IMG/VR virus record: IMGVR_UViG_3300020536_000010
Coordinates: 1 to 64,000 of that record
Strand: one strand, 5' to 3'
DNA from: a virus
DNA: 64,000 bases
The notes under the pieces were generated by a model. The model was not told where the DNA came from, did not search any database, and was given only the letters and a program-made list of their open reading frames with translations. Shown here piece by piece: positions 1,524 to 27,685 of the stretch. Made by a program: the position numbers and the translations under genes. Each line of letters starts with the position of its first letter. Within the stretch, counting starts at the first letter, position 1.

Positions 1524-1541
1524 TGATAAAATTGGAGAATG
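1524..1541 (+). promoter_or_regulatory. Leaderless-type promoter of the 1539 oxygenase gene
   Basis: Extended -10 TGATAAAAT (1524-1532), then 6 nt, then ATG. Transcription would begin at or next to the A of the start codon. GGAG lies too close to the ATG to act as a normal Shine-Dalgarno. Confidence 0.55.
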
Positions 1542-2135
1542 GAAGACGGTAACCAAAAATACACAGAGCAAATTAAAATAGTTAAAAACTTTATAACCTC
1601 TGAAGAGGCAGATTTCTATTTGCAATATATAAACAATAATGATCATTTAATGAAAAGAAGCCGTCTATGTGGAGAAGCAAGCAAGGTATTAAAATTTGGA
1701 AAGCAAACTTATGAAAAATATACAACCAATAAAAATCTTTCAATTATTAGTGATATTGAGCCTATCGTAAGAAATAAAATTTTCCCCAAAGTGGAACAAA
1801 CAATTAGGGCAATTTATGCAAACGAAAAAGATCTATTTTTATCTGATATATATTTTGCAAAACAGTCTAGTGGTGGGTGGGTCCAGGAGCACTCTGATCA
1901 AGAAGGTGACGCTGCCTTACATGTAAAATATAGTGGCATTATTTATTTAAATGATGTGGAAAAAGGCGGGTCTTTGGTTTTTCCAAAATTAAATTATGAA
2001 TATTCTCCAAAAGCTGGAGACTTAGTAACATTTCCATCTGCTGGAGATCAATATGTGCATTTTGTAACTACAGTATACGAAGATAGATATACTTTGCCTG
2101 TTTGGGTAACGGAAGACGAATTTTGGAAACTATAA
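1539..2135 (+). CDS. 2OG-Fe(II) oxygenase, prolyl-4-hydroxylase-like
   Basis: A 198-residue protein of the double-stranded beta-helix dioxygenase superfamily, which couples decarboxylation of 2-oxoglutarate to hydroxylation of a substrate. The iron ligands are visible as H118-x-D120 (QEHSD) and H174 (YVHFV). R183 (EDRY) fits the 2OG carboxylate-binding position. The YLND-GG---FP signature after the first motif is shared with the other oxygenases of the window. It has no signal peptide, so it should act in the cytoplasm. It sits alone ahead of a tiny Cys-rich gene and convergent to the methyltransferase operon, with its own leaderless promoter. The substrate is unknown. Confidence 0.88.
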   Translation: MEDGNQKYTEQIKIVKNFITSEEADFYLQYINNNDHLMKRSRLCGEASKVLKFGKQTYEKYTTNKNLSIISDIEPIVRNKIFPKVEQTIRAIYANEKDLFLSDIYFAKQSSGGWVQEHSDQEGDAALHVKYSGIIYLNDVEKGGSLVFPKLNYEYSPKAGDLVTFPSAGDQYVHFVTTVYEDRYTLPVWVTEDEFWKL

Positions 2136-2140
2136 TACGC

Positions 2141-2155
2141 TATAATATTTATATG
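2141..2155 (+). promoter_or_regulatory. Leaderless-type promoter of the 23-aa peptide
   Basis: TATAAT (2141-2146), 6 nt, ATG at 2153. A second TATAAT at 2131-2136 overlaps the stop codon of the upstream gene. Confidence 0.5.
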
Positions 2156-2224
2156 CGTATTATTCACAAAATGGCATGTGGCTGCAATAACAACTGCCCA
2201 TGCAAGCTTCCTGAGCCTAAGTAG
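2153..2224 (+). CDS. Cys-rich 23-aa peptide
   Basis: The product carries CGCNNNCPC, i.e. C-x-C-x3-C-x-C, between a basic N-terminus and a KLPEPK tail. The start at 2153 lies exactly 6 nt after TATAAT, like other leaderless genes here; an in-frame ATG at 2171 would give a 17-aa form. Four cysteines in nine residues suggest a metal-binding (metallothionein-like) or redox mini-protein. Its last 8 bp overlap the convergent methyltransferase gene. It may be real or chance; the promoter spacing is the main support. Confidence 0.45.
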   Translation: MRIIHKMACGCNNNCPCKLPEPK

Positions 2225-3530
2225 CCTTTCTCATTCTGATATAGGTAATAACAGAGTACTTGGTTCCTTCTTCAATCTTTGATATGCTATATTCATAGCC
2301 CTTTACTGAAGGCAAAATAACAACTTCATTTGCATTTGGCTTATAGGTCAAATTAAGCTCTGGGAACTCCAGGGCACCTCCTGAATAATCATCATTCAAA
2401 AAGTACATTATGGTAATAGCGTTTGTATCTTGATTACTACTTAATGGAAAAGATGTGCCTGTGCTATATTTCATAAGCCCTATTTGGTCATGAAGTTTTT
2501 GTGGCAATGCATTTGATTCAATATAGTCTTTTTCAACAAATCCCATAAATCCAGCAGTAACCAAAGCAATTCTTTCCTCAAATGTAACCGAAAAGTCGTT
2601 TGGATCCTTAAATTCTTGGGGGTATGGGAATGACATAGTCTGAACATAGCTTCCAGATATCATTTCCATATTCCACTCAGCCATTCCAGCATAAGTCATT
2701 TGCTCAACGTAAGGAATTAGTTGTTCGTATCCTGGTATAACATTCTTATATACAACTATTCCAGGTGCTAGATCTTCTTTTTCAATTGTTGGTGTATATG
2801 CCTGCTCTGTATTACTCATTTCTTTTCCTTCCAAATTTTTGGCTTTTCTTATACGCTCTTTTGCAATCCTGACTTGATCTTCTGACACGTCATTATAAAT
2901 AAAGTTTCTATTTAGGTTTATACAGGCGTGTGCCACCGATCCAGTACCACCCATTATATCAGCAACCGTGTCCCCTTCTTCGGAAAAGTGGCTAACTATA
3001 ATATTACAAAAATCTAGTGGAGTTGAATCGCCTGTATGGCCCTCTATGTTAATTAATTCTGCATCTAGCTGCCAAGGAATATCAATTATCATTTTTTCAA
3101 GTTCTTTGAATTTTGGACTTCCTTTGCTAAAATGCAAAAAATATACTTGAGTTTTATTATGTTTGATTTTGCTACGCTCATTATTGTTTGGCATATTGCC
3201 GTATTCCCAAATAATTGGGTGATGTGGCAATAGACTGGTTTCTTTAATTACAGAACTTATAAAATAATACAGCAGTGGTTGTGAAAGTATTCCTATAAGA
3301 ATAGAACCAGTGGGTTTTAAAGCATGCTCCATATGCTTCATAACCTTTACTAGGCGGTCAAGATACTCTTCCTGACTTCCATTAGCCATTTGTTGTTCAT
3401 AATTTCCATATTCTCCAACAGGAGCCTCACGTCCACTATTTAGTGTGCCATAATACGGCGGTAGTGTAAAAAATAAATCCACAGACTCTTTTTCTAAAAA
3501 AATCTCTGTAGCATCCTTACAATAAAACAC
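2217..3530 (-). CDS. DNA methyltransferase fused to a degenerate 2OG oxygenase domain
   Basis: Residues 1-235 look like a beta-class DNA amino-methyltransferase (N6-adenine or N4-cytosine). The catalytic motif TLPPYY (22-27) comes first and the AdoMet-binding motif DIMGGTGS (191-198) comes later, as is known for that class. DIM replaces the more usual DPF. Residues about 250-437 match the oxygenase family that begins LAPGIV, but aligned with the intact 11146 protein both ligands of HxD become S364 and N366 and the distal His becomes Y414. All three iron ligands are therefore lost, while the YFLND-GG---FP frame and K424 remain. The GTG start abuts the stop of the zinc-ribbon gene, implying coupling. 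An in-frame ATG at 2819 with AAGGA could yield the C-terminal half alone. Confidence 0.8.
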   Translation of the reverse strand: MFYCKDATEIFLEKESVDLFFTLPPYYGTLNSGREAPVGEYGNYEQQMANGSQEEYLDRLVKVMKHMEHALKPTGSILIGILSQPLLYYFISSVIKETSLLPHHPIIWEYGNMPNNNERSKIKHNKTQVYFLHFSKGSPKFKELEKMIIDIPWQLDAELINIEGHTGDSTPLDFCNIIVSHFSEEGDTVADIMGGTGSVAHACINLNRNFIYNDVSEDQVRIAKERIRKAKNLEGKEMSNTEQAYTPTIEKEDLAPGIVVYKNVIPGYEQLIPYVEQMTYAGMAEWNMEMISGSYVQTMSFPYPQEFKDPNDFSVTFEERIALVTAGFMGFVEKDYIESNALPQKLHDQIGLMKYSTGTSFPLSSNQDTNAITIMYFLNDDYSGGALEFPELNLTYKPNANEVVILPSVKGYEYSISKIEEGTKYSVITYIRMRKAT

Positions 3531-3744: not shown

Positions 3745-3843
3745 TAGGGGGCTTATTGTCAATACCTGGCATATTAGGTATATTTGCACATATTAGCACA
3801 TATTGTGGTTTGTTGTGCATGGTATCTCTATATACCGCCGAAT

Positions 3844-4083
3844 TTAATTTAAAACCCTATTCATTATTTTACTGTATATAGATTTTTCTAGAGCTAAAAG
3901 GTCTATGTCGTTTTTGGCAGCGAACTTAATTACCTCTTCTTTTGCCAAATCTGCCAAATCCTCACGCATATATTCCAATCGCTCGTAAAAATTTTCTAAA
4001 TATTTTTCTTCAATATGTGGGCCATCACAATCCCAGCTGCTAACGCAAAATGGGCATAAATACTTTCCGTCATTAAGTCTCAT
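3844..4083 (-). CDS. Small CPFC-containing protein of unknown function (79 aa)
   Basis: An N-terminal CPFC (about residues 10-13) and a nearby Cys19 suggest a partial zinc-knuckle or redox pair. The remainder is acidic and helical, with Glu/Leu-rich heptad-like spacing (ENFYERLEYMREDLADLAKE). It overlaps the end of the upstream hydroxylase gene by 11 nt, so it is the third gene of the minus-strand unit read from 5306. No family is recognised. Confidence 0.6.
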   Translation of the reverse strand: MRLNDGKYLCPFCVSSWDCDGPHIEEKYLENFYERLEYMREDLADLAKEEVIKFAAKNDIDLLALEKSIYSKIMNRVLN

Positions 4084-4669
4084 CTAAGAACCTTATTCCT
4101 TGTAGATATTCTTCTGGAAGCACATCCAACAAAAGATGAATCCTATGATCTTTTCCGTTATTTCTTACACTATGATAATTTATATTATTAAGTTCATACA
4201 ATTTACCTACTTCAAGGTTTCTTGCTTCGGATCCCGCACTAAATATTACATGCTCATTAGTTTTGATTGGAATATGAAATCTTCTAGCGGTATATAAAAC
4301 ATCTGACCTATCCTTATGTGTACGAATTCTGCCTCCTGGTTTTAAGCTAATCAGCTCCGAACGGATTAATTTACCGCCTACAAGCTGTTCTAGCTTATTT
4401 ACCAAATTCTGATATTCCGCTTTTGCATACTCGTTTACAAATTTTCTGCTAGTTATACAGTCTATTGGAGAACCGATTCCATGAGCATAGTCTAAGGATG
4501 TTAGCTCAATTGCAAAGGTATCCTTGTGAGTAGGATGAGTTTCTTGTCTAGTAGTATTTAGTAACCACTCTTCGTAATAAGACAAAATTTCTTTTTTTAT
4601 ATTAGATATTGAGACCTCACCAAATTCCATAAAATTCCAATTATCACGTTTGTTTTTTAAGGTACTCAT
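4073..4669 (-). CDS. Aspartyl/asparaginyl beta-hydroxylase-like 2OG oxygenase
   Basis: 198 residues with a single beta-helix oxygenase core. H118-x-D120 (RTHKD), distal H166 (NYHSV) and R176 (DHRIHLLLDV) fit the iron and 2OG ligands of the aspartyl/asparaginyl hydroxylase family, which differs from the prolyl-hydroxylase type of the other paralogues. The ATG at 4669 is preferred to an upstream TTG because GGAGG lies just before it. It overlaps the sulfotransferase-like gene by 26 nt and the next gene by 11 nt, so the three are one operon. The substrate is unknown; a protein or small metabolite is possible. Confidence 0.75.
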   Translation of the reverse strand: MSTLKNKRDNWNFMEFGEVSISNIKKEILSYYEEWLLNTTRQETHPTHKDTFAIELTSLDYAHGIGSPIDCITSRKFVNEYAKAEYQNLVNKLEQLVGGKLIRSELISLKPGGRIRTHKDRSDVLYTARRFHIPIKTNEHVIFSAGSEARNLEVGKLYELNNINYHSVRNNGKDHRIHLLLDVLPEEYLQGIRFLDET

Positions 4670-5306
4670 ACGCCTCCAGATCAAACGAATTTAATTCTGT
4701 TATCAAGTTATTATACTTGCTTCTTAACCTATCCTTAATAGGTCTAGACTGATTTATTTTATTACCGACTATTTTAACACCTAGAATATCACTAATTTTA
4801 TCATATCTATTAGTATCATCAAAATCTATTAATATTGTTTTATTTTTTTCTATAGTTTTTGAAAAAGATAAAATATCTGTATCGTAGTTTTTTACGAACC
4901 AACAACTTTCTGCTCTATATAATAGGTTTGATATATTATCATTATATTTTTCTATATCTATTTCACCAGTTAAAAATTTTGAATTAATATTTACAAAGTT
5001 TTCTATTTTTCCAGTATCTATATACATTTCAATTAATTCGGAAAATGTTAAATGTGGATAATGTCCAAGATGATAACTAATATAGCTAAATGTTAAGTCT
5101 ACTGGATTTCTAAATATTGCAAAATTAACGTCTGTATCTTTTATTGGAGTAGTTGCAAAATGACCACTGACAATATCATATTCAGAAAAGTTATTTGGAA
5201 GTTTACGGTTATGTCTGGAAAAAATATTACCAGGCAGACTATGAACTGCAAATTCTCTTATAAATATACCACTAGTTCTGGGTATGTGCAAATGATAAAC
5301 AGACAT
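4644..5306 (-). CDS. Sulfotransferase-like protein
   Basis: The N-terminus HIPRTSG (7-13) matches the 5'-phosphosulfate loop of PAPS-dependent sulfotransferases (typical form HIPKTGGT). GHF (48-50) and FRNPVDLTFSYISY (65-78) match the 3'-phosphate-binding segment (typical R-D/N-P). Such enzymes move sulfate from PAPS to carbohydrate or other hydroxyls. At 220 aa it is near the minimal length of the family. Ser12 replaces the second glycine of the typical loop, so activity is uncertain. It leads the minus-strand operon with a -10-like TACAAT 7 nt before its ATG. A role in glycan or small-molecule modification is inference. Confidence 0.65.
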   Translation of the reverse strand: MSVYHLHIPRTSGIFIREFAVHSLPGNIFSRHNRKLPNNFSEYDIVSGHFATTPIKDTDVNFAIFRNPVDLTFSYISYHLGHYPHLTFSELIEMYIDTGKIENFVNINSKFLTGEIDIEKYNDNISNLLYRAESCWFVKNYDTDILSFSKTIEKNKTILIDFDDTNRYDKISDILGVKIVGNKINQSRPIKDRLRSKYNNLITELNSFDLEAYEYLKKQT

Positions 5307-5319: not shown

Positions 5320-5339
5320 CCAAAATTAAAAAAAGCCCA

Positions 5340-6367: not shown

Positions 6368-7087
6368 ATGTCTATTAGCAAAAGCATGGATTTTCCATCA
6401 AGCAAAAAAACCAACTATGCCAAATTAGCACAACAGGTGCAGCAGCCAGAAAATGCTGTTTCTTATATTCCAGTTCCAGGTCCGCCAGGGCCAAAAGGCG
6501 ATCCAGGCTCAGCAGGTGTTCGTGGAGATAAAGGTGATCGTGGAGAAAAGGGTGATCGTGGAGAAAAGGGAGAACCAGGTAAAAATGGTAAAGATGGAAA
6601 AACCTACCTTCCAGTTTATGAGCAAGATGTTGGTTGGGCAAGATATACAAATTCTAAAGATTTAATGTTTAAGCTTGGGGCAGATGAAGGAGAAGATGGC
6701 TGGGTAACAGTATTTGTCGAAGCTTCAAAAACGAAAAATGAAGACTTTTTGCCAAGAGATACTGGAAGCCTTTATAATTCAGAAGCCAGAAAGATAATGC
6801 TTAAATCATTAAAGGTTGGATCTCAGGTAACTGTAGCCTACACCTTTTCAGTAGAAACATTTTCGAATAATACTGAGCTTTGGATTAGAACATATCTTCC
6901 AGCATCTGATAAGGCCATAAGCACCCTAGTTGGAACCCTAAAATATCAATTTGAATATGAAATGTCAATTGTTCAAAAATTTTATATAGAAAGCGAACAA
7001 AGTAGGTCTGGGGGAGCAATTCCACAAATTAGAACAGACCTTAATGCAATAGCAAAACTACACTCAATTGAGATTTCTGTAGCTTAG
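6368..7087 (+). CDS. Collagen-like tail fibre protein
   Basis: 239 residues. After a Gln-rich N-terminal segment, residues 38-79 form 14 uninterrupted Gly-X-Y triplets rich in GDR, GEK and GEP. A globular C-terminal domain follows (about 80-239). Collagen-like triplets form trimeric rods, and phage fibres often use them as shafts. Only the early triplets carry proline in X or Y. AGGAGA precedes the chosen ATG by 4-5 nt. The region encodes many prolyl-hydroxylase-like proteins, so hydroxylation of this shaft is an attractive but untested idea. Probably a receptor-binding or side fibre. Confidence 0.75.
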   Translation: MSISKSMDFPSSKKTNYAKLAQQVQQPENAVSYIPVPGPPGPKGDPGSAGVRGDKGDRGEKGDRGEKGEPGKNGKDGKTYLPVYEQDVGWARYTNSKDLMFKLGADEGEDGWVTVFVEASKTKNEDFLPRDTGSLYNSEARKIMLKSLKVGSQVTVAYTFSVETFSNNTELWIRTYLPASDKAISTLVGTLKYQFEYEMSIVQKFYIESEQSRSGGAIPQIRTDLNAIAKLHSIEISVA

Positions 7088-9480: not shown

Positions 9481-10668
9481 ATGGTAAATGCATTTGGTTA
9501 CTATGCATCTGCAAAGGGAATGGTTTTGGTTCCAAACCTTTCTGAACTTACATCGGCTGCAGCCATCTCCGAATTAGAGTCTGAAGGCTTAAACTATTCT
9601 CTGGGTGCTGATGTAGATACTACAAATGCAGCCTTAGATAACCTAGTTGCAGCACAAGATCCAGCTGCAAATACCCTGGTTGATTATGAAACTGTAGTTC
9701 AATTTAGTCTTTACAATCTTGTTTCAGTGCCACCGTTCTTCCCGCCATTCTTCCCATTTTTCCCATTCTTTCCAAGTTTCCCATCAACACCATCAGTTTC
9801 TGTTTCAGCAACAGCAATTAGCGATACACAAATTAACGTAAGTTGGTCATTTACAAACTTTACAGCACAATCTTTTCAAATAACAAGAACTGGTGCCCCA
9901 CCATCTCCAAATGTATATCCGCTTGTAAATTCAACCGATACGACCTTTACAAATCTAGGTCTTACATGTAATTCAACATACACATATGACATTATATTTT
10001 ATAGCGGTCTAGATGGAACAGGAACACAGCTAAGCGGATCTGCAACAGCAACAACCTCAGCTTGTGCAGCTATATTTGCAATTACTAGCACATCATCAGG
10101 CCCAACAAGTATTACATATTCATGGGCGAATCCTCCAGCAGGAACCACCTCTTATAGTGTATTCTATGCAACTGAGGATGTCCCTAGTACGCCAGTCAGT
10201 ACAACATCAACAACCTATACTTTTGAAAGTCTAACCCCAAACACTACTTATCAGGTTTATACACAAGCTAGAAATTCAGGTGGCACACTATTGGCAACGG
10301 CATCTGCTTCTGTTTCAACACAACCAGTTTCATCACCATTCTTCCCTCCTTTCTTCCCACCCAGCTTCCCATTCTTCCCACCATTCTTCCCACCGTCATT
10401 CCCGTCATTCCCAGACTTTCCACCCAGCTTCCCACCAGAATTTGGATCAACAACCTATTATGGATGTTGTGGAGATGCAACTTCAGTAACTGGCACATAT
10501 GCTAGCCTAAGTGCTGCAACAACTGCAATGGAACAATTCTGTGCTACTGAAACAATGACTCCTTTAGTTAGTGGACCTAGCACATCGCCAATTTCTTGTT
10601 TGTGTGGTGGTCTCCCAGAGCCATACCCAGGACAGTGTTTCTGTAGTGGAGGAGTATGGATATGCTAA
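9481..10668 (+). CDS. PASTA / fibronectin-III adhesin with Phe-Phe-Pro repeats
   Basis: Residues 16-79 fit a PASTA domain (VPNLSELTSAAAISELESEG, then AAQDPAANTLV), a fold known to bind peptidoglycan fragments or beta-lactams. Residues 84-101 and 285-320 are runs of FFP/FPP units. Between them lie two fibronectin-III-like domains (SWSFTNF at about 121 and SYSWANPPAGT at about 215). The last 75 residues hold about ten cysteines, including CLCGG and CFCSGG, and look like a disulfide-bonded tip. AGGAGG precedes the ATG. This is a likely cell-wall-binding virion adhesin; the FFP segments are highly unusual. Confidence 0.75.
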   Translation: MVNAFGYYASAKGMVLVPNLSELTSAAAISELESEGLNYSLGADVDTTNAALDNLVAAQDPAANTLVDYETVVQFSLYNLVSVPPFFPPFFPFFPFFPSFPSTPSVSVSATAISDTQINVSWSFTNFTAQSFQITRTGAPPSPNVYPLVNSTDTTFTNLGLTCNSTYTYDIIFYSGLDGTGTQLSGSATATTSACAAIFAITSTSSGPTSITYSWANPPAGTTSYSVFYATEDVPSTPVSTTSTTYTFESLTPNTTYQVYTQARNSGGTLLATASASVSTQPVSSPFFPPFFPPSFPFFPPFFPPSFPSFPDFPPSFPPEFGSTTYYGCCGDATSVTGTYASLSAATTAMEQFCATETMTPLVSGPSTSPISCLCGGLPEPYPGQCFCSGGVWIC

Positions 10669-10909: not shown

Positions 10910-11146
10910 ATGAGTAAGATATCTCCATGGCAACAATGGAAACAAAATTTAGGAGAAACTCGTCCTTGGGACCTTATAAATCCTCAAACTCAATGGGCAA
11001 CAGAAGAGGTCTCAACAAACAGGTTTGATATCTGTAAGTCTTGTCCAGAATTAATTAAGCCAACATCTCAATGTAAAAAATGCGGATGCTTTATGACTGC
11101 AAAAACAAAGCTAGCTTTGGCAACCTGTCCATTAGGTAAATGGTAA
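10910..11146 (+). CDS. Zinc-ribbon-like mini-protein (78 aa)
   Basis: The N-terminus SPWQQWK leads to C-x2-C (ICKSC), C-x2-CGCFM and CPLGKW. It is the paralogue of the 65-aa protein at 3531-3728 and, like it, is followed directly by an oxygenase gene beginning ELAPGIV. The start at 10910 follows the previous stop by one base. The six cysteines would form one compact zinc site. The conserved pairing suggests it acts with the oxygenase, perhaps as adaptor; that is inference. Confidence 0.75.
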   Translation: MSKISPWQQWKQNLGETRPWDLINPQTQWATEEVSTNRFDICKSCPELIKPTSQCKKCGCFMTAKTKLALATCPLGKW

Positions 11147-11742
11147 TGAATAAAAAAGAGCTTGCCCCTGGAATTGTTCTTTATAAAGATATTTTTAATG
11201 GATATCAAACTTTAATTTCAGATATAGAAAATGCTGTAGATTCAAAGATTACTAGTTGGAGCCAGGCATCAGTAGTAGAGAAAAATTTTGATGGCATTAA
11301 CACAGAATCAAGGGATACCCTTAGTCTTATAGTTCCACACCTTAATAATTTGTCACCAAATTTATCAATACCGCCAAACTCTTTTAACTATAATCTCAGT
11401 AAAATATTTTTTAAAGTTTTTGATCCATTTGAAAGAGATTACATGTTTATGTATAATGTTTGGGCACCAACACACGACCAATACAGTATATTAAAATATG
11501 GAGTTGGCCAAAAATTTATAAATCATATTGATGATTGCCAAGATTATCACCGTAGAATTTCTACTGTTTATTATGTTAATGACGATTATGTTGGCGGAGA
11601 GATTGAGTTTCCAAGATTTAACATATCATATAAACCAAAAGCAAATGAGCTATTAATATTCCCATCAACATATGTATATAATCATTCTGTGAACAGAGTA
11701 ATAGAGGGTACTCGCTATTCTATTGTTAGTTGGCTAAAGTAA
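11146..11742 (+). CDS. 2OG-Fe(II) oxygenase, LAPGIV type
   Basis: 198 residues beginning MNKKELAPGIV. Iron ligands H127-x-D129 (INHID) and H180 (YNHSV) and the 2OG-binding R190 (GTRYSIV) are all present, with YYVNDDYVGGEIEFP between. It is the intact relative of the dead domain fused to the methyltransferase at 2217-3530. The start at 11146 overlaps the zinc-ribbon stop (TAATG) and has AGGT at a good distance; an ATG 6 nt upstream is the alternative. The 3' end overlaps the convergent lysin gene by 17 bp. Substrate unknown. Confidence 0.88.
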   Translation: MNKKELAPGIVLYKDIFNGYQTLISDIENAVDSKITSWSQASVVEKNFDGINTESRDTLSLIVPHLNNLSPNLSIPPNSFNYNLSKIFFKVFDPFERDYMFMYNVWAPTHDQYSILKYGVGQKFINHIDDCQDYHRRISTVYYVNDDYVGGEIEFPRFNISYKPKANELLIFPSTYVYNHSVNRVIEGTRYSIVSWLK

Positions 11743-12884: not shown

Positions 12885-12908
12885 ACTGCACCTCCTATAA
12901 AGCACAAA

Positions 12909-12929
12909 AACACCTTTTTTAAGGGTGTT
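12909..12929 (-). terminator. Leader hairpin / attenuator-like terminator of the lysis operon
   Basis: On the minus strand AACACCCTT (12929-12921) pairs with AAGGTGTT (12916-12909) and is followed by more T residues. It lies just after the predicted start of the lysis transcript and before the AGGAGG of the NlpC gene, where early termination could limit lysin expression. On the plus strand it has no gene to terminate. Confidence 0.45.
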
Positions 12930-12935
12930 CAATAA

Positions 12936-19576: not shown

Positions 19577-20401
19577 ATGGCAGTAGGAAAAAGACCTGGT
19601 AGAAGGTCACAGGCATCAAACGACTTTCTAGAGCCAAAGGCACCAACAAGCGTATCTGCTACTAACGTTGGAACTGGGAGGGCATTTAATGATGGTGCTG
19701 CCACAGTTACTTTTTCTTTACCTGGTGATTCTCCAGCAGCTACTTCTTATACAGTAACAGCTACTGCTTCTGGTCAAACAACCAGGACTGCTAGCGGAGC
19801 TACATCACCATTAACAGTAACAGGTCTTGTTGGTGGAGTAACCTATACAGTTAGCGTTACTGCAACTAATAATGCTGGAACATCTGCCGCTTCTTCTTCA
19901 ACCACTGTTGCCATTACTACAGTACCAGGAGCACCAGCTGCCCCGTCAGTTGCTTCAACTGTTATAAATCAAGACTCTATTTCTTGGTCTGCACCAAACA
20001 CTGGTGGAAGTGCAATTACTGGATACCGTTGGGAAAGTAGCGACAATAAGTCAAACAACGTTGCTTCTAACGTTACATCCGCTACAGTAACACAAGAAGG
20101 TGGAACTTCTCAGACATATAAGGTTCGTGCAAGCAATGCTAATGGAGACGGTGCATTTTCTCCTAATTCATCTAGCGTTACTACGTTTAGTCCTTTCTTC
20201 CCGCCATTCTTCCCATTCTTCCCGCCATTCTTCCCGCCGTTTTTCCCATTCTTCCCATTCTTTCCACCATTCTTCCCATTCTTCCCATTCTTCCCATTCT
20301 TCCCACCATATTTCCCATCGTTTGGACCATTTTTCCCACCATTCTTCCCACCATTCTTCCCAAGCTTCCCAGGTGGAGCTGGAGGGTCTAAGTTCTTCTA
20401 A
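19577..20401 (+). CDS. Fibronectin-III protein with long Phe-Phe-Pro repeat tail
   Basis: Residues about 20-205 form two fibronectin-III-like domains (SYTVTATASG, SVTATNNAGTSA; then SISWSAPNTGGSAITGYRW, YKVRASNANGDG). Residues about 206-268 are an almost pure alternation of FFPP and FFPF units, ending GGAGGSKFF. The same kind of repeat is in the 9481 adhesin. The plus strand here is a near-pure pyrimidine tract, mostly TTC and CC(A/G). AAGGAGA precedes the ATG. Such hydrophobic proline repeats are unlike known fibre shafts; they could pack as a rod, bind membrane or bind hydrophobic surface layers. Confidence 0.7.
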   Translation: MAVGKRPGRRSQASNDFLEPKAPTSVSATNVGTGRAFNDGAATVTFSLPGDSPAATSYTVTATASGQTTRTASGATSPLTVTGLVGGVTYTVSVTATNNAGTSAASSSTTVAITTVPGAPAAPSVASTVINQDSISWSAPNTGGSAITGYRWESSDNKSNNVASNVTSATVTQEGGTSQTYKVRASNANGDGAFSPNSSSVTTFSPFFPPFFPFFPPFFPPFFPFFPFFPPFFPFFPFFPFFPPYFPSFGPFFPPFFPPFFPSFPGGAGGSKFF

Positions 20402-20447: not shown

Positions 20448-20465
20448 TGCTATAATTTAGTTATG
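20448..20465 (+). promoter_or_regulatory. Leaderless-type promoter of the oxygenase operon
   Basis: Extended -10 TGCTATAAT (20448-20456), 6 nt, ATG at 20463. Its upstream part lies inside the terminator hairpin, so no classical -35 is available. Confidence 0.7.
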
Positions 20466-21200
20466 ACAAATAATTGGCTAACAAAAGATAGATCAGAAAC
20501 AGATTCAAATAGAATGCCAGAAAGATTTACACAGGCTGGAATTTTAGTTACTAATCCAGCATTGGGCATTAATATATACAACCAGGCAATCGATGAAAAA
20601 ACTTGTGACTATATTATTGAAACTTTAGAAAATAACCTTAATGGGCAAACAAAATATTCTTGGCAGGGTGCAAAAGTAACTGAGGCAGACACTGTTCTTG
20701 AAGAGGCTCGAAAGTGCTTAGATTTTAAAGTAAGTTCAAATAATCTTGGGCCAAGAGATAACCATAATTCAAGCCTATATGACATGCACGAAATTGCTTT
20801 TCGTTCAATAAAGCCAAACGTTGATGACTATGGAATGTATTGGGGTGTTGGGGTAAATTTTTTTGAAGCATTTAATTTTGTCAAATATGATGGACCAGGA
20901 ACACACTTCAAGATTCATGCTGATCATGGACCAGCATATGTTACAACCGTATCTGTAGTGGCATATGTTAATGATGACTATGAAGGCGGAGAGCTTTACT
21001 TTCCACGGTTTAATCTAAAGCTAAAGCCAAAAAGGGGAGATGTCATGGTTTTCCCATCAACATATATTTATGAGCATGCATCTAACGATATGATTAACGG
21101 AACAAAGTATTCTATCGTAATTATGACTGACTACAATAATCGTGGTGGATTAAGAAACTTTAACTACCGTCAAGAAGATATGAATAAAATATATTATTAG
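20463..21200 (+). CDS. 2OG-Fe(II) oxygenase (245 aa)
   Basis: First gene of the oxygenase operon. Iron ligands H152-x-D154 (KIHAD) and H205 (YEHAS); K215 (GTKYSIV) takes the 2OG carboxylate position, as is known for prolyl 4-hydroxylases. The AYVNDDYEGGELYFPRFNL core is typical of the set. The ATG at 20463 is preferred over an upstream TTG because it lies 6 nt after TATAAT. It is most like the next gene (both have Y-NDDYEGGEL and GTKYSIV), suggesting tandem duplication. Substrate unknown. Confidence 0.88.
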   Translation: MTNNWLTKDRSETDSNRMPERFTQAGILVTNPALGINIYNQAIDEKTCDYIIETLENNLNGQTKYSWQGAKVTEADTVLEEARKCLDFKVSSNNLGPRDNHNSSLYDMHEIAFRSIKPNVDDYGMYWGVGVNFFEAFNFVKYDGPGTHFKIHADHGPAYVTTVSVVAYVNDDYEGGELYFPRFNLKLKPKRGDVMVFPSTYIYEHASNDMINGTKYSIVIMTDYNNRGGLRNFNYRQEDMNKIYY

Positions 21201-21207
21201 GAAAATT

Positions 21208-21912
21208 ATGAGTGCACAAGAAGATTTACAAAAAAGAATAGAAGATTTTTATAAAATTGATGAAATTACTTGGTCATCAATAGATGATCTAGGAAGCGGA
21301 ATTTTTTTATTTAGGAATGTCCTGCCAACCTCAATGAACATTATTGAAAGGCTAGAGTCAGTTTTGCAAGACCCCTCTAATCAATATAAATATGCAGAAG
21401 CAATGGTTGGCTATGGAATGAAAATCCCAGAATATAGAGATTGCTATGATTTTAAGTATAAAAAGACTGACATTCAACACGACAAAAGTGAAGCATCTAT
21501 AAAGCTTCAACAGCTATGGGATGAGGTTTATTTTAGGCAGTTGCAAGCAGTAAAATACTATTGCAAGGTTCACAATATTGGAGAGCTTAGATATTGGGAG
21601 GCAATGAATTATGTAAAGTATGGTCCAGGACAGCACTTTCAAGAGCATTCAGACAATGGGTTTTCTTATAACTGTGTAGTTTCTTTGGTAGCATATCCAA
21701 ATGATGATTATGAAGGCGGAGAGCTATTTTTTAGGCTCCAAAACTTAAATATTAAACCAAAGGCTGGAGACTTATTTGTATTTCCTTCAAACTTTATGTA
21801 TCCACATAGAGCTATGCCAGTTACTAGTGGGACAAAGTATTCTATAGTTACAATGCTAGATTATTCGGACAAATATCATAGACCAGATTTTTATCAGGAG
21901 ACTGGGAATTAA
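21208..21912 (+). CDS. 2OG-Fe(II) oxygenase (234 aa)
   Basis: Ligands H147-x-D149 (QEHSD), H200 (YPHRA) and K210 (GTKYSIV). A long N-terminal region (1-125) is rich in Glu/Lys/Tyr and may shape the substrate pocket. GGAAAA lies before the ATG and the stop overlaps the next start (TAATG). It is close in sequence around the active site to the 20463 protein, but the N-termini differ widely, which suggests different targets. Confidence 0.87.
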   Translation: MSAQEDLQKRIEDFYKIDEITWSSIDDLGSGIFLFRNVLPTSMNIIERLESVLQDPSNQYKYAEAMVGYGMKIPEYRDCYDFKYKKTDIQHDKSEASIKLQQLWDEVYFRQLQAVKYYCKVHNIGELRYWEAMNYVKYGPGQHFQEHSDNGFSYNCVVSLVAYPNDDYEGGELFFRLQNLNIKPKAGDLFVFPSNFMYPHRAMPVTSGTKYSIVTMLDYSDKYHRPDFYQETGN

Positions 21913-22631
21913 TGGCTAAAGTTTTTGTATATACCTCTGGTCAGATGGCAAAAATAGACCAATTGCCACTGCATCGTGATTGGATGGACACTACGTTTGA
22001 TAGACATGCCTATCACTGTTTTCCAGTATCATTATCTAATAGGCTAGGTTGGGGAATTTCATTTCCAGAAGATATAACTTTTATTTGGGATGGCATAAAT
22101 GATTCAACTGGAGATCATGTTAAAATATTATCTGGTTCTAAATACGCTCATCCAAATCGTGGCAATAGAACGATTAGCTTTTACACAGATATCACATTTT
22201 TTGAAGAAAATGGTAAAAATATAACTCTTTTGACAATGCCAGTGCCAAATCAATTTATCAGGGGTGCTCAATGTATGACAACCCTATTGAGCACATCTGT
22301 GCTTGCTAGTGATCTGCCAATTGCCTGGATGATAACAGAACCAAATATAGAAATAACAATTCCAGCTAATACTCCAGTAGCAGCAGTTTTGCCAGTATCA
22401 TTAGCAGATATTCAATCACATGAGATAGAAGTTCGTAATGGCAGGCCACCATATGAAGACAATGAGTGGAATAATAAAATGCGTGATCGTGGTATTGTAA
22501 GTCAAGAAAAAAATTCAAGAGGGGAGTGGACACATTTTTATAGGGATGCTATTGATCACAATGGAGATCCTATTGGACATCACGAAGCAAAAAAGATAGT
22601 TATGAAGGTTACAAATAATGCCAAAAATTAA
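21912..22631 (+). CDS. Beta-barrel-like protein related to the next gene (239 aa)
   Basis: I do not recognise a firm family. The central segment (ITLLTMPVPNQFIRGAQ, then EITIPANTPVAAVLPVSL) aligns in layout with the 22618 protein (GYSVLYSQPFGR, then GVLPAGTAYAQMIPFKR). Both therefore look like one double-stranded beta-helix or cupin-like fold, but no HxD motif is evident. It is coupled to the oxygenase on each side by 1-nt and 14-nt overlaps. A role with the oxygenases, perhaps substrate binding, is inferred from position only. Confidence 0.55.
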   Translation: MAKVFVYTSGQMAKIDQLPLHRDWMDTTFDRHAYHCFPVSLSNRLGWGISFPEDITFIWDGINDSTGDHVKILSGSKYAHPNRGNRTISFYTDITFFEENGKNITLLTMPVPNQFIRGAQCMTTLLSTSVLASDLPIAWMITEPNIEITIPANTPVAAVLPVSLADIQSHEIEVRNGRPPYEDNEWNNKMRDRGIVSQEKNSRGEWTHFYRDAIDHNGDPIGHHEAKKIVMKVTNNAKN

Positions 22632-23343
22632 ATTTATAACAAATAGGCCATGGCTTTCTGAAAAAGACCCATCTGCCCCAGAACCAGTTTCTAAAAGTCT
22701 TCCAGATTGGTATAAAAATGCAGATAGATATGCAAAAATGTCTAATGGACAGCATTTGATTGGCCCAGATAAAGGAAAAATTCCAACATGGAAGGCATGT
22801 CCAGCCTTATACGATATATTTGTAACTGGGTATACTTATAAAACCCCATGCGATATTGAGTTTTATCTTAATGATAATGATGAAATTTCTGTAAGAGTTT
22901 CTAATCAAAAGTACCATGATTTTGTTCATTTAAGACCACCAATGCAGCAATTTGAGCATCCAAAAGGATATTATAAAAAGCATTTTGCCTGGTGGCCAGA
23001 CTGGGCGGTAGCAGTTCCAGATGGATATAGTGTATTATATTCTCAACCATTTGGAAGATATGATTTGCCATTTCTTACAACTAGCGGTATTGTAGATAAT
23101 GACAAGGTAAACTTGCCAGGAACTTTTCCATTTTTTATTCAAGAAGGATGGACTGGAGTCTTACCAGCAGGAACTGCATACGCACAAATGATTCCATTTA
23201 AAAGAGAAGACTGGGAATCAGAATATGAAATTAGTACATCTGAGACTATAATGAAAAAGAATTTTGAAAATGTCAAAAAATATAGGGTTCCAAATGGTGG
23301 AGTATACTTAAATGAGGTCTGGGAGAGAAGAAAATATGAATAG
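22618..23343 (+). CDS. Beta-barrel-like protein of the oxygenase operon (241 aa)
   Basis: Contains NRPWLSEKDP and KSLPDWYKN near the N-terminus, then PDGYSVLYSQPFGR, SGIVDNDKVNLPGTFPFF and LPAGTAYAQMIPFKRE. This motif order recurs in phage genomes beside 2OG oxygenases in my general recollection, but I give no family name. It overlaps the preceding gene by 14 nt. No signal peptide or membrane segment is present. It may be a partner or a divergent oxygenase without visible metal ligands. Confidence 0.6.
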   Translation: MPKIKFITNRPWLSEKDPSAPEPVSKSLPDWYKNADRYAKMSNGQHLIGPDKGKIPTWKACPALYDIFVTGYTYKTPCDIEFYLNDNDEISVRVSNQKYHDFVHLRPPMQQFEHPKGYYKKHFAWWPDWAVAVPDGYSVLYSQPFGRYDLPFLTTSGIVDNDKVNLPGTFPFFIQEGWTGVLPAGTAYAQMIPFKREDWESEYEISTSETIMKKNFENVKKYRVPNGGVYLNEVWERRKYE

Positions 23344-23358
23344 AAATAGGAGTTGTTT

Positions 23359-24027
23359 ATGGAAAATTTAGCAAATAATAGTGTGGTTGACAGAGTCTCT
23401 ATAACTCCGTCTGGATTTTTTGGATCTTCCTCAGAAAATATTGTAACATTAGAAGATTTTATGACTGAATATGAAATAACTAGATTAAATGATTTCATAA
23501 GGTCTAATGAAAATTGGGATATAACTGAAACTCACTATAATGAAAATGGAACGGTTATTTATGATTCTGGATATTGGGCTAATCGTGTAGCGACTTATCC
23601 AACAATTCAAAAAACAAACCCAGAAATACCTGAAATTATAGAAGGCATGGTTGCAAGATTAAAGATTGAAGTAGACAAGTTTTTTGGTGTAGATGCTTTG
23701 CCAACTAGCCCAGCCATGGTTAGATGGCTTCCTGGCCAATTTCAAATGCCGCATGCAGATAAAGAATTGCACACTGGTCCAGACGCTGGAAAGCCCAATG
23801 ATTTTCCATACTATGACATTGCTGGACTTTTTTATGTTAATGATGACTATGAGGGGGGAGAGCTATACTTTCCAAACCAAGGAATTCAGTTTAAACCTAA
23901 AAGGGGAGCTGCCTACTTCTTCCCAGGAGATATGAACTATATACATGGTGTAACAGAGATAAAGTCTGGAATCAGGTATACAGTTCCATTCTTTTGGACG
24001 ATACTATCTCATAAGGGCAATTCTTAG
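23359..24027 (+). CDS. 2OG-Fe(II) oxygenase (222 aa)
   Basis: Ligands H132-x-D134 (MPHAD), H196 (YIHGV) and R206 (GIRYTVP). The frame LFYVNDDYEGGELYFPNQGIQFKPKRG is intact. The ATG at 23359 has AGGAG 6 nt upstream and is preferred to a TTG two codons before. The N-terminal 110 residues include DFMTEYEITRLNDFI, an alpha-helical cap common in prolyl-hydroxylase-like enzymes. Substrate unknown. Confidence 0.88.
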   Translation: MENLANNSVVDRVSITPSGFFGSSSENIVTLEDFMTEYEITRLNDFIRSNENWDITETHYNENGTVIYDSGYWANRVATYPTIQKTNPEIPEIIEGMVARLKIEVDKFFGVDALPTSPAMVRWLPGQFQMPHADKELHTGPDAGKPNDFPYYDIAGLFYVNDDYEGGELYFPNQGIQFKPKRGAAYFFPGDMNYIHGVTEIKSGIRYTVPFFWTILSHKGNS

Positions 24028-24031
24028 GCTA

Positions 24032-24059
24032 TGGTATAATCTTAATTGGAGAGTGGTTT
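24032..24059 (+). promoter_or_regulatory. Internal promoter of the oxygenase operon
   Basis: Extended -10 TGGTATAAT (24032-24040), then a leader with GGAGAG before the ATG at 24060. It would let the last four oxygenases and the dehydrogenase be expressed separately. Confidence 0.6.
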
Positions 24060-24818
24060 ATGGCAAATTTAAACAATATGAATAGGTTAACTGACGACAT
24101 TGTTATCTATGAAAATTTTATATCATCAGAAGAGTGTTCTAAAATTATTAAGCTTTTAGATAAGGTGGCAGAAAAAGGCACTATGACTTGGATGCCAATA
24201 TCTTTTTATGAGTCGTATTCTTCAGTTTTGCCACAAGACGATGATCCAGAAATTGAAGAAGAGGGGTTGCCAGGCAATATATTTTCTAGCATTAAAGATG
24301 GGTTTATTCAGGCTGTGGCATCCGTACATAGCATAGATCCAAAAACTGTTGTGCAAATTGGGTATCACACTCAAAAGTGGGAGCCAGGGGCATATGCAAG
24401 AATACACTCAGACAATACAGATGAACATGGAAATACTGGCCCATTTGCAAGAAGTAGATATGCCGCATTTCTTTATTTAAACGATGATTTTTCTGGAGGA
24501 CTATTAAAATTTCCAAAGCAAAATATAGAGATTTCTCCAAAAGTGGGAATGTTGGCTGCTTTTGACGGGGGCTTTAACAATATGCACGAAGTTACACTAA
24601 TTGAGTCTGGAATCAGATATACAATAGGATCTTTTTGGGATGACCGTGAGGAAGATGCATATCCACAAGAAGTTAGAGATGCCTGGGCAGATGAAATGAA
24701 ACAGATTAGAGAAAAGCAAGAAATCGAAAGAAAAGAATGGCAAGATTTGCTTAAAGACGGGTATAAAATAGATATGGATGGCAATAAATATAAGGTGGGG
24801 CAAGACGACAATGATTAA
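24060..24818 (+). CDS. 2OG-Fe(II) oxygenase with charged C-terminal extension (252 aa)
   Basis: Ligands H116-x-D118 (RIHSD), H176 (NMHEV) and R186 (GIRYTIG). After the catalytic domain a charged helical tail (about 193-240, rich in Glu, Lys and Gln) is unique among the paralogues and could be a coiled-coil contact. The N-terminal DDIVIYENFISSEECSKII is a typical entry helix of the family. It overlaps the next gene by 8 nt. Confidence 0.87.
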   Translation: MANLNNMNRLTDDIVIYENFISSEECSKIIKLLDKVAEKGTMTWMPISFYESYSSVLPQDDDPEIEEEGLPGNIFSSIKDGFIQAVASVHSIDPKTVVQIGYHTQKWEPGAYARIHSDNTDEHGNTGPFARSRYAAFLYLNDDFSGGLLKFPKQNIEISPKVGMLAAFDGGFNNMHEVTLIESGIRYTIGSFWDDREEDAYPQEVRDAWADEMKQIREKQEIERKEWQDLLKDGYKIDMDGNKYKVGQDDND

Positions 24819-25470
24819 TCAGCTAAAAGAAATTTTAAAGAAAAATAATATATCATTTGAAGAAATTACGGATGAGCTAGTATCTATTGAAAATTTTTTA
24901 ACAGATAATGACTTAGAGTTTCTTTTTAATCAAATAAATTCCGCTTCACAGGAAGATTGGGAAGTGGAATATTTAGCTAACCTAAAAAGCTTTTGTTTAG
25001 AAAAATTTGGTAGAGATGATGTAGAAAATCTTGTGGCTGAAGGAAAGTTTGAAATAACACAAAATTGGTCTGACAAAAATCTAAATGTAAGTGAACACCC
25101 AGAATATCGTATTTTTTATAAAAGGCTTGCCTCTCTTGTAACAGAAGCAGACGAAACACTGATGCTTAGTGGTCTTGCTACAATACAAAGAATGCAGCCA
25201 GGGGTAGAGCTAAAATCACATACAGATCAGCATACAGATCCATCAATACGTTATGCTGCAATTATTTATATTAATGATGATTATGAAAATGGTGAGCTGT
25301 TCTTTAGAAATCTTGGAATAAAGCTTAAGCCAAAACCAAAAACTCTTCTTATTTTTCCAGGAAATGAGCAATATGAGCACGGGGTTGACTTTGTTTCAGA
25401 AGGTCCAATAAGATATGTCTTAGTCGGATTTATTAAGGAAAAGGGTTTTTACGAAAGGAATAAATTCTAA
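24811..25470 (+). CDS. 2OG-Fe(II) oxygenase (219 aa)
   Basis: Ligands H137-x-D139 (KSHTD), H190 (YEHGV) and R201 (PIRYVLVGF). The core reads YINDDYENGELFF, with Asn for the usual first Gly of GGE. The start at 24811 overlaps the previous gene; no strong Shine-Dalgarno is seen, so coupling is likely. Its N-terminal 110 residues are more acidic and helical than in the neighbours. Confidence 0.87.
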   Translation: MINQLKEILKKNNISFEEITDELVSIENFLTDNDLEFLFNQINSASQEDWEVEYLANLKSFCLEKFGRDDVENLVAEGKFEITQNWSDKNLNVSEHPEYRIFYKRLASLVTEADETLMLSGLATIQRMQPGVELKSHTDQHTDPSIRYAAIIYINDDYENGELFFRNLGIKLKPKPKTLLIFPGNEQYEHGVDFVSEGPIRYVLVGFIKEKGFYERNKF

Positions 25471-25471
25471 A

Positions 25472-26176
25472 ATGAAAAAAAATATTTTAAATGATATGGT
25501 TTATTATTATGAGGATGCCGTTTTAAACTTTGACAAAGTTATGGAAACGATTAAAGAGCTAGACATAATTGGCCCATCCGATGCCGTTCCTTTATGGCAA
25601 GACTGGACTTCATCAAATGATAAAACATTTATATATGGACAAACCCAAACATTTGATATTAATCAAATTAATAAAATGGATGAGCCATATAAGAGTAAAT
25701 TAGCATTTATATATAACAACATCATGGAATCGTTCTACGAAGTCTCAAAAGATTATGCAAATTCTATAGGAGATTTAGATGAGCCAAGACTTTTCCCAGT
25801 ATTTAATATTAAAAAGTATAATACTGGTTCTGCAATGGGTGCACACTATGACCAATTAGATGGGGATAAAACATTGCGGTATTCTTTGGTGATGTATCTT
25901 AATGATGATTGTGATGGTGGAGAAATTTCATTTAAGCTATCTGAATATGAAGATCACAATAAAGTTGCAAGTCCAGACTTAGATTATGCTGTTGCTGTAG
26001 AAAAAAATCAAATAGATTTTGGGGTAAAGCCAAGTGCTGGAAGTATTATAATTTTCCCATCTTCTGCACCATATTATCATATTGCTCACACAGTAAAATC
26101 TGGTTTTAAATATATGGTTCCAAGTCACTGGATTCATAATGATATGAGTATGAGAGATGGCAGAAACAGCATATAA
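25472..26176 (+). CDS. 2OG-Fe(II) oxygenase (234 aa)
   Basis: Ligands H125-x-D127 (GAHYD), H203 (YYHIA) and K213 (GFKYMVP). A 40-residue insertion (about 155-190) stands between the GGEISF strand and the final PSAG-IIIFPS segment, longer than in the neighbours. It starts 2 nt after the previous stop and overlaps the next gene by 20 nt. Function within the operon unknown. Confidence 0.86.
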   Translation: MKKNILNDMVYYYEDAVLNFDKVMETIKELDIIGPSDAVPLWQDWTSSNDKTFIYGQTQTFDINQINKMDEPYKSKLAFIYNNIMESFYEVSKDYANSIGDLDEPRLFPVFNIKKYNTGSAMGAHYDQLDGDKTLRYSLVMYLNDDCDGGEISFKLSEYEDHNKVASPDLDYAVAVEKNQIDFGVKPSAGSIIIFPSSAPYYHIAHTVKSGFKYMVPSHWIHNDMSMRDGRNSI

Positions 26177-27017
26177 TTTTGATATTGAAAAAATACAAGA
26201 TACGGTATGGGTTTTTAAAAAAGCAATTAAAAATCCAGAATCTTTTATAAAATATTTTGAAGAAAATAAAAAATGGAAAGATTGGTATACTCTTGGTAGG
26301 TCAGCCAATGGCACTCTTTTTTCAACAAGTTTTGATACATTTCCAACAGAAGAAGAGTGGAAAAGGAAAAAGCATGAATCACCACATAATGACTTTAAAA
26401 GCCCAGGCTATTATGAAAATAAAATTAATGATTTATTTTATAATACCACAAGGCTATATGTTGAAGAAAACAATTTAGTATTTGATAACTGGATTTATAA
26501 TGGTTGGGGTATAGCAAAGTATATCCCAGATCCACAGGATAATACAGAATATGCTATGTTTCATCATACAGACTTTCAAAGAGAATTGGCCTATAATCCT
26601 GGATCTAAGTTTGCCATTACTGTTGTTTTTTATCTTAATGACAACTATGATGGCGGAGACGTAATGTTTAGGTTTTTAGATGATAATGATATGTCAATAA
26701 TTAAAGAAGACTATTCTTATAAGCCACAGGCTGGAGATATTGTTGTTTTTATGTCTGGCCATCCACATTATCATGGAGTAAAAAAAGTCAGCAATGGCGA
26801 AAAATATATTATAAGAGCATATTGGAAATATGACTATCTTGGACATCCACTTTGGTTAAAATTGCAAGAAAAATATGGAGAAGATGTTTGGAGACAATTA
26901 GAAAAAGAGCGATTAAGATTTAGTAGAAATACAGATAATATAAAAATGATTAATAATGTTCAGTTTTGGATAGAGTTCGAAGAATATTATAAAAAAGAAC
27001 TGGGATCTTTGGATTAA
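26157..27017 (+). CDS. 2OG-Fe(II) oxygenase (286 aa)
   Basis: The longest of the set. Ligands H137-x-D139 (HHTDF), H206 (HYHGV) and K216 (GEKYIIRAYW). The N-terminal 110 residues carry a lysine- and tryptophan-rich helical domain, and the C-terminal 60 residues (WLKLQEKYGEDVWRQL) add a further helical piece. It overlaps the previous gene by 20 nt and the dehydrogenase by 1 nt (TAATG). Confidence 0.86.
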   Translation: MAETAYNFDIEKIQDTVWVFKKAIKNPESFIKYFEENKKWKDWYTLGRSANGTLFSTSFDTFPTEEEWKRKKHESPHNDFKSPGYYENKINDLFYNTTRLYVEENNLVFDNWIYNGWGIAKYIPDPQDNTEYAMFHHTDFQRELAYNPGSKFAITVVFYLNDNYDGGDVMFRFLDDNDMSIIKEDYSYKPQAGDIVVFMSGHPHYHGVKKVSNGEKYIIRAYWKYDYLGHPLWLKLQEKYGEDVWRQLEKERLRFSRNTDNIKMINNVQFWIEFEEYYKKELGSLD

Positions 27018-27685
27018 TGAAAACAGCAATAGTTACTGGTGCAAGCAAAGGCGTAGGTTATGCGACTGTAAAGCTTTTATCGGAAAATGGATATAGGGTT
27101 ATAGCTGTTTCAAGAGACCTATCCAAGATTTCTAATCTGGAATCTGGCAATGTTGAAATATACAAATTAGACATAACAAGAAAAGACGAAATACTGGCAT
27201 TTGCTGAGAAGTATAAAAATATTTCTCTAGATCTTCTTGTTAACAATGCAGGTGGTGGTTCTGGACCAACCAAAATTATTAATGAAACAATGGAAAATTT
27301 TAGAATAGCATATGATATTAATGTTGCTGGGCCAATGTATTTATCCCAACTTTTTGTTCCCTGCCTTCAAAAATCAGAGTCTCCAACAATAATCTTTGTG
27401 ACATCTTTGTCTGGCAAGATTCCATATAGGAATGGCGGTAATTATACTAACGCAAAAAGAGGAGAAATGGCATTAGTTGATACAATGAGGATGGAGTTTC
27501 CAGAATATGGGATTAAGATTACAGAAATATGTCCTGGCACCATAGATACCCAAATTGAGAAAAAGAATCATGCCTTAACTGCAGAAGATATGGCAGAGGC
27601 TATTCGCTGGGTAGCCTCATTGCCAAAACATTTTAATGTAAATCATCTAGAAGTTAGCCATATTTTAAATAGTAAGTATATGTAG
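27017..27685 (+). CDS. Short-chain dehydrogenase/reductase (SDR)
   Basis: 222 residues of the classical NAD(P)-dependent SDR fold: TGASKGVG (7-14) binds the cofactor, NNAG is at 76-79, a catalytic Ser lies near 130-132, and Y143-x3-K147 (YTNAK) completes the active site. SRD at 32-34 after the second strand may favour NADP, though this is inference. It closes the oxygenase operon by a TAATG junction, so it may oxidise or reduce the product of one of the hydroxylases. Slightly shorter than the usual 250 aa, mainly at the C-terminus. Confidence 0.88.
   Translation: MKTAIVTGASKGVGYATVKLLSENGYRVIAVSRDLSKISNLESGNVEIYKLDITRKDEILAFAEKYKNISLDLLVNNAGGGSGPTKIINETMENFRIAYDINVAGPMYLSQLFVPCLQKSESPTIIFVTSLSGKIPYRNGGNYTNAKRGEMALVDTMRMEFPEYGIKITEICPGTIDTQIEKKNHALTAEDMAEAIRWVASLPKHFNVNHLEVSHILNSKYM

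Follow-up and report, generated by a model that had tools for sequence, protein, structure and literature searches.

Peptidyl prolyl 4-hydroxylases (P4Hs) such as Chlamydomonas P4H-1, PBCV-1 vCPH, Bacillus anthracis P4H, Pseudomonas PPHD/EF-Tu and PHD2 share a fold and an HxD...H motif completed by K or R, and the algal P4H acts on proline-rich peptides. T4-like cyanophages contain 1–5 genes for 2-oxoglutarate- and Fe(II)-dependent (2OG-Fe(II)) oxygenases per genome, and 24 were counted in S-SCSM1 (PMC9602691). The function of these phage enzymes has not been specifically investigated, and their genes are usually interpreted as auxiliary metabolic genes (AMGs) acting on host metabolism (PMC9602691). 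Here, we describe a locus in the IMG/VR record IMGVR_UViG_3300020536_000010, a 79,037-base contig of a virus that infects aquatic bacteria; bases 1–64000 of this contig were analyzed and are referred to as the window. The locus comprises a gene for a protein with fn3 domains and a tail of proline and phenylalanine repeats, followed directly by an operon (20463–27685) with seven P4H-like oxygenase genes. These enzymes resemble the P4Hs named above in fold and ligand motif, whereas a phage operon with as many as seven diverged paralogues, an identity of only about 15% to the solved enzymes and a substrate that is putative set them apart. The tail protein and the operon are gained and lost together, and we see about an even chance that they form a mobile cassette in which the oxygenases hydroxylate prolines in the tail of a virion fibre.

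Results

The tail protein and the oxygenase operon

The order of genes at the locus is Mtd_N fibre, fn3-tail gene, operon, the 27717 protein and portal. The fn3-tail protein (19577–20401, plus strand; PF00041, 1.4e-12) consists of fn3 domains followed by PFFPPFFPFFPPFFPPFFPFF..., a (PFFPPFF)n tail that was read directly from the sequence (amino acids 206–262); this protein is the proposed substrate. All genes of the operon lie on the plus strand. It opens with P4H-like oxygenases 1 (20463–21200, HAD...H...K; PF13640, 1.1e-10) and 2 (21208–21912, HSD...H...K; 8.7e-15), continues with a DUF6065 protein (21912–22631; PF19541, 1.3e-22) and a beta-rich protein of phrog_7084 (22618–23343; 1.7e-32) with a weak dUTPase/dCTP-deaminase-like fold, and then encodes oxygenases 3 (23353–24027, HAD...H...R; PF13640, 3.4e-7), 4 (24060–24818, HSD...H...R; 1.3e-7), 5 (24811–25470, HTD...H...R; 4.2e-10), 6 (25472–26176, HYD...H...K; 5.5e-10) and 7 (26157–27017, HTD...H...K; 2.5e-12). 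The last gene encodes a short-chain dehydrogenase/reductase (SDR; 27017–27685; PF00106, 2.9e-38) with the catalytic YxxxK present. An initial annotation, made from the sequence alone, had already listed seven intact oxygenases and an SDR in this operon, which agrees with our analysis; the two remaining genes, described there as beta-barrel-like, are the DUF6065 and phrog_7084 genes.

The gathering cut-off of PF13640 (27 bits) was exceeded by nine genes of the window (1539, 11140, 20463, 21208, 23353/23359, 24060, 24811, 25472 and 26157; 31.6–60.3 bits), and gene 4073 matched PF05118 (Asp_Arg_Hydrox) at 44.3 bits (cut-off 22.6). Sequence and alignment showed intact HxD, distal H and R/K ligands in all ten, which by family and ligands are candidate 2OG-Fe(II) oxygenases with predicted activity. 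The ten intact ligand sets and the solid family membership claimed from motifs in the initial annotation thus withstood the comparison with curated profile cut-offs. The oxygenase domains are homologous to one another (22–47% identity). A PF13640 search of the whole record gave eight matches, with 1539 below that search's first look, and this count agrees with the 3–13 found in 30 relatives. By the mutual homology of its domains and the purifying selection on them, the oxygenase set is far beyond chance.

Two protein-anchored scans of IMG/VR with operon proteins returned relatives with identities from 100% down to about 36%. Among the matches listed, about 140 contigs keep the operon order with local variation, namely fn3-tail, 20463, 21208, DUF6065, 22618, 23353, 24060, 24811, 25472, 26157 and SDR, and 927 of the 939 oxygenase open reading frames (ORFs) in these loci carry the full motif as defined by a simple pattern. 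Wherever they were covered, the Fe ligands are invariant in six groups (20463, 21208, 23353, 24060, 25472 and 26157; 43–137 orthologues), with 23353 retaining them in 137 orthologues; for 20463, H152, D154, H205 and K215 are invariant in 31 orthologues, and the motif of 24811 is kept in 100 of 101 close orthologues. One of the most widespread members is the 24060 oxygenase, with at least 599 related stretches in IMG/VR. The ratio of nonsynonymous to synonymous substitution rates (dN/dS) of the individual operon genes was mostly about 0.02–0.17, with medians per gene of about 0.03–0.13 and a value of 0.25 for one near-identical pair. Conserved order, conserved ligands and low dN/dS support the view of the operon as a dedicated, selected module. 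Density alone, which in the initial annotation had suggested a dedicated pathway, is not unique to this virus, whereas the suggestion gains from the evidence for a selected module. Degradation of the paralogues in related phages, which had been named as an observation that would speak against a pathway, was looked for and not seen, the Fe ligands being kept in the operon orthologues.

Coupling of the tail protein to the oxygenases

The association was analyzed in both directions. Upstream sequence is available for 75 operons, and under a strict rule a PFFP protein lies no more than 2.5 kb ahead of 68 of them. Among the exceptions, L040 has PHFPP repeats, L146 encodes the tract in a different frame where its contig begins and L107 is cut by its contig, while in L113, L125 and L129 inserted metabolic genes separate the operon from the tract, which lies about 6 kb upstream and on the same strand; the closely related L132 belongs to this group as well. 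Every operon copy in IMG/VR for which the upstream sequence suffices thus comes after a protein with a Pro-aromatic tail, either adjacent or about 6 kb away (four contigs). The insertion in L125 (L125:1092-5443) contains five metabolic-looking genes between tail gene and operon, including possible IMP dehydrogenase-like and PLP-enzyme-like genes as judged by eye. A reverse search, independent of the oxygenases, used DNA encoding PFFPFFPPFFP: an oxygenase lay within 2.5 kb for 54 of the 62 PFFP ORFs that have at least 2 kb downstream, and PF13640 genes were present in 27 of 31 whole records with PFFP ORFs.

Since whole-record counts from loci found with operon queries are biased by selection, a portal-anchored control was made with 24 relatives picked regardless of either trait, with about 12 kb or more of sequence upstream of the portal gene (about 10.5 kb in one). 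L286, which has an identical portal, no oxygenase and a contig with just 444 bases ahead of the portal gene, was left out together with others that have too little upstream sequence. All seven records with the PFFP pattern carry 5–7 PF13640 genes, whereas all 17 records without PFFP, which also lack FFxPPxFF, carry 0–2 (Fisher p = 2.9e-6). On a quick portal tree, to which earlier cassette-bearing records were added with both traits scored jointly, the cassette needs eight state changes, of which well supported branches force at least seven, and in each of the 7 independent pairs a change of the tail is matched by one of the operon (sign test p = 0.016). In two cassette-free relatives, the site between the fibre gene and the 27717-type gene is filled by a class II (B12-dependent) ribonucleotide reductase (RNR; L366:7810-9840 and L367:4964-6994). 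Because tail and operon change together on the portal tree and a class II RNR fills the site in these two relatives, the cassette is, as read from these comparisons, an exchangeable and hence mobile unit of fibre protein plus enzymes, and the coupling of tail and enzymes is well supported by the genomic comparisons.

The spelling of the tail varies among relatives (PHFPP, FFSPP, GFFAPP), with prolines retained throughout. In more distant operons the tails are of the FFSPP or GFFAPP type and often precede a segment that starts with CI[HDE][EQ]DT and ends with HN, as in L096:5041-6318, L036:1963-3342 and L085:6561-8042. These motifs suggest a Hint-like (intein-type) domain and with it C-terminal autoprocessing of the fibre; Pfam gave no such domain for the one copy tested. 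The tail-coding stretch of the window (20192–20362) uses the Phe codons TTC and TTT in a ratio of 26:4, compared to 37:261 in the other genes examined, a bias that perhaps reflects avoidance of T-runs or recent expansion of the repeat.

Similarity of the operon proteins to known enzymes

The 50 best PDB matches of an AlphaFold2 model of 20463 (pLDDT 84) are all peptidyl prolyl hydroxylases (E 1e-10 to 1e-7, TM 0.45–0.69), with Chlamydomonas P4H (2jig) at the top and its (Ser-Pro)5 complex (3gze) included. Profiles of 20463 and 21208 matched Bacillus P4H at 1.6e-6 and 2e-5, respectively, and a joint profile of the nine PF13640 genes matched Bacillus P4H at 7e-17, followed by prolyl 3-hydroxylase 1, PBCV-1 vCPH, algal P4H and PHD2. 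A P4H-type double-stranded beta-helix fold is therefore predicted for 20463 by its model and for the other members by profile similarity. TET/JBP DNA-base oxygenases (PF12851) were considered and rejected as a family, with scores of 15.9 and 17.7 bits for 23353 and 24811 against a cut-off of 34.9. A scan for defence systems gave nothing over curated cut-offs except the generic PADLOC '2OG' profile and methyltransferase matches.

The nearest solved structures of the SDR are generic SDRs, including 3asu and 2jah. DUF6065 had no match among 50,697 GenBank phage records. In cellular genomes, a profile scan found it on one 5.3-kb phage-like contig in a Chitinophagaceae metagenome-assembled genome; this contig is probably mis-binned and therefore does not indicate a host. 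An alignment of the DUF6065 and 22618 profiles reached a weak hhalign probability of 54, at which homology is neither proven nor excluded. For 22618, the AlphaFold2 model (pLDDT 88) gave weak Foldseek matches to dUTPase/dCTP deaminase (best 6e-4, TM 0.25–0.6), there was no Pfam match to dUTPase or dCTP deaminase and no PDB sequence match up to E = 10. Homologues of 22618 with 25–31% identity occur in HF1-like haloarchaeal viruses, and the copy of HSTV-2 adjoins thymidylate synthase.

Oxygenases and candidate substrates outside the operon

Two further P4H-like oxygenases are encoded on the plus strand at 1539–2135 (HSD...H...R; PF13640, 9.7e-9) and at 11140–11742 (HID...H...R; 3.7e-16), the latter downstream of a PASTA and fn3 protein with two PFFP tracts (9481–10668, plus strand; PF03793 and PF00041, tracts read from the sequence), which is a further candidate substrate. 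A collagen-like (GXY)n protein (6368–7087, plus strand; PF01391, 9.4e-9) is a second one. The minus-strand gene 2217–3530 encodes a DNA N4/N6 methylase (PF01555, 1.5e-21) whose C-terminal region of about 190 amino acids is homologous to 11140 (31% over 199 amino acids, 9e-32). Here, both iron histidines are gone, with HxD changed to NQD and the distal H to Y, in accordance with the dead fused copy noticed initially. As all relatives share this ligand loss, a homologue that stands free (L285:5980-6597) included, and dN/dS is nevertheless about 0.16, the domain looks like a maintained pseudoenzyme, that is, a conserved pseudo-oxygenase.

An Asp/Asn beta-hydroxylase-like oxygenase (4073–4684, minus strand, HKD...H...R; PF05118, 2.2e-11) is paired with a sulfotransferase-like protein (4644–5306, minus strand) in which HxPRTxG and RNP..S, the candidate PAPS-binding motifs, are invariant. 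Three of six relatives of 4644 match the sulfotransferase family PF03567 (1.7e-7), the copy in the window being without a match, and relatives have a PDB match to heparan sulfate 6-O-sulfotransferase (5e-4). In L075, L085, L086 and L088, the 4073/4644 pair is part of the oxygenase operon and comes immediately after the fn3-tail gene.

Neighborhood of the cassette and host

Just 5' of the cassette lies the gene for a fibre protein with the N-terminal domain of the major tropism determinant (Mtd_N; 17559–19556, plus strand; PF18454, 2.6e-14), and the C-terminus of this fibre differs in the cassette-free relatives compared (L366 and L367). The downstream border is a large tail-associated protein (27717–31421, plus strand), which comes after the cassette in relatives and after the class II RNR in cassette-free ones. 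The portal protein (31808–33436) is 47% identical to those of Streptomyces siphoviruses, e.g. StarPlatinum and BoomerJR, and the record contains, outside the window, a class Ib RNR with a small subunit for which the nearest PDB entry is one named nrdF2. Because of these two similarities, the host is likely an actinobacterium and the virus an actinophage-like siphovirus. Lysis genes for an NlpC/P60 endopeptidase and a lysozyme-like transglycosylase are located on the minus strand at 11726–12956.

Discussion

The initial annotation had left it open whether the enzymes modify virion fibres, a host surface or a small molecule, and had overlooked the tail protein as a partner. The evidence favors virion fibres, because the operon is always accompanied by an fn3 protein with a Pro-aromatic tail and has the Mtd_N fibre gene close by. 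The tail protein as substrate, proline as the modified residue, the virion location and the benefit are our inferences from sequence comparisons. Late in infection, the cell would make the (PFFPPFF)n-tailed fn3 protein together with the seven P4H-type oxygenases and the structural proteins, and the oxygenases would hydroxylate prolines of the tail, possibly besides other residues, before virion assembly. Thereby, a very hydrophobic, insoluble-looking Pro/Phe tract would be turned into a hydroxyproline-rich fibre tip, adhesive or stabilized, at the end that binds the receptor. Hydroxylation would probably extend to the collagen-like protein and to the second protein with PFFP tracts. The SDR may oxidize the hydroxyl groups made by the oxygenases, whereas DUF6065 and the weakly dUTPase-like 22618 protein could act as scaffolds or substrate-presenting partners. 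In relatives, genes for a sulfotransferase-like protein and an Asp/Asn-hydroxylase-like oxygenase are part of the operon, and the Hint-like segment may process the tail. The broader claim, that this family of tailed phages builds hydroxyproline-rich receptor-binding fibres, some of them perhaps sulfated and Hint-processed, through a dedicated prolyl-hydroxylase pathway of several enzymes that is carried from phage to phage in a single cassette, is one we would place somewhat below an even chance.

Several points weigh against hydroxylation of the tail by the operon enzymes. Because tail gene and operon are neighbors, mere linkage could move them together and would likewise produce joint gain and loss. 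Since a class II RNR can occupy the cassette site instead, this site is a hotspot for accessory genes and not only a fibre locus. The need for seven enzymes is left without explanation. The main clue that does not fit is 22618, whose weakly dUTPase-like fold and haloviral homologue beside thymidylate synthase point to nucleotides. A matching of enzyme and substrate, sought in the presence of 20463 and the type of tail (117 PxFP tails with 20463, 22 FFxPP tails without it and five exceptions), proved to be a single clade split and provides no evidence, because the tree of the 21208 group needs only two changes and yields two independent pairs.

Alternatively, the oxygenases, the SDR and their partners might make or break a small molecule or shift the 2-oxoglutarate and nitrogen metabolism of the host, with the fibre gene as a mere neighbor. 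Such an auxiliary metabolic role is the prevailing view for cyanophages (PMC9602691, PMC11561400), and it is compatible with the resemblance of the operon SDR to generic metabolite dehydrogenases, with an exchange site that can hold an RNR and with the metabolic genes inserted beside the operon in one sub-lineage. However, the best structural relatives all act on peptidyl proline, the enzymes are located within the structural gene block, and one would not expect the operon to be coupled, time and again, to a single structural protein whose tail is Pro-aromatic, which makes this role unlikely, if worth serious consideration. Rather improbable is linkage without joint function, in which fibre and operon would be independent passengers of one recombination hotspot: in most genomes the two are neighbors, and an RNR can take their place at the site, but among the records with enough sequence none that holds five or more of these genes lacks the tail protein, and the order survives a five-gene insertion as well as divergence to 36–50% protein identity. 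Given active exchange at the site, independent passengers should separate, which weakens this explanation.

Modification of a surface protein or polymer of the host, e.g. to keep out superinfecting phages or to suit the fibre of the phage itself, would explain the coupling to a receptor-binding fibre too, and a sulfotransferase-like gene is indeed found in the operon of some relatives; we nevertheless consider it quite improbable, as the conserved core has neither a secretion signal nor a glycan enzyme and the operon is part of the late structural block. Hypermodification of dNTPs or DNA by putative dUTPase-fold proteins and oxygenases is very improbable. In its favor are the weak fold match of 22618, the proximity of a haloviral homologue to thymidylate synthase, the dead 2OG domain on a DNA methylase and the sub-threshold Tet_JBP matches of two members; against it stand Tet_JBP scores far under the cut-off, a much stronger P4H fold and profile, an operon in which neither a glycosyltransferase nor another gene for base modification was seen, and a coupling to PFFP proteins that would be left unexplained.

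If the broader claim of hydroxyproline-rich fibres built by a mobile pathway is true, the locus would be a phage counterpart of the maturation of collagen or of plant and algal hydroxyproline-rich glycoproteins, and some phage 2OG oxygenases now classed as metabolic genes would have a role at the level of the virion. Confirmation would bring to light a pathway in which enzymes mature the receptor-binding fibres of phages, alter the way in which viral metagenomics counts such genes and supply compact peptide hydroxylases whose repeat substrate is defined. With seven enzymes paired with one candidate substrate of extreme and easily recognized sequence, it is a testable alternative to the host-metabolism view.

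Comparison with known systems

The number of oxygenases is not itself the novelty of the locus, because phage 2OG oxygenases are known and can be numerous, as in S-SCSM1; the statement in the initial annotation that one or two per phage are common understates this background of 1–5 genes in T4-like cyanophages and 24 in S-SCSM1 (PMC9602691). In the literature outside subscription papers, we found no earlier description of a fibre-hydroxylase pairing, of phage prolyl hydroxylases acting on fibres or of DUF6065. The T4-like cyanophage oxygenases are similar to those of the window in belonging to the PF13640 family and in their many copies per genome, but identities of 23–35% over partial coverage do not qualify the genes as orthologues. 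The nearest isolates by portal (47%) are the Streptomyces siphoviruses of the BE/StarPlatinum group; relatives of 20463 were found in none of the StarPlatinum-group isolates, and its GenBank phage matches are exclusively cyanophages and distant. With Mtd-type receptor-binding fibres, the gene upstream of the cassette shares the Mtd_N domain, the match being confined to the N-terminal domain. Collagen-like and fn3 tail proteins of phages have fn3 domains and GXY repeats on tail-associated proteins in common with the window. Unlike them, the family described here combines a Pro/aromatic repeat (PFFPPFF, PHFPP or FFSPP), and sometimes a Hint-like C-terminus, with a bundled set of predicted hydroxylases.

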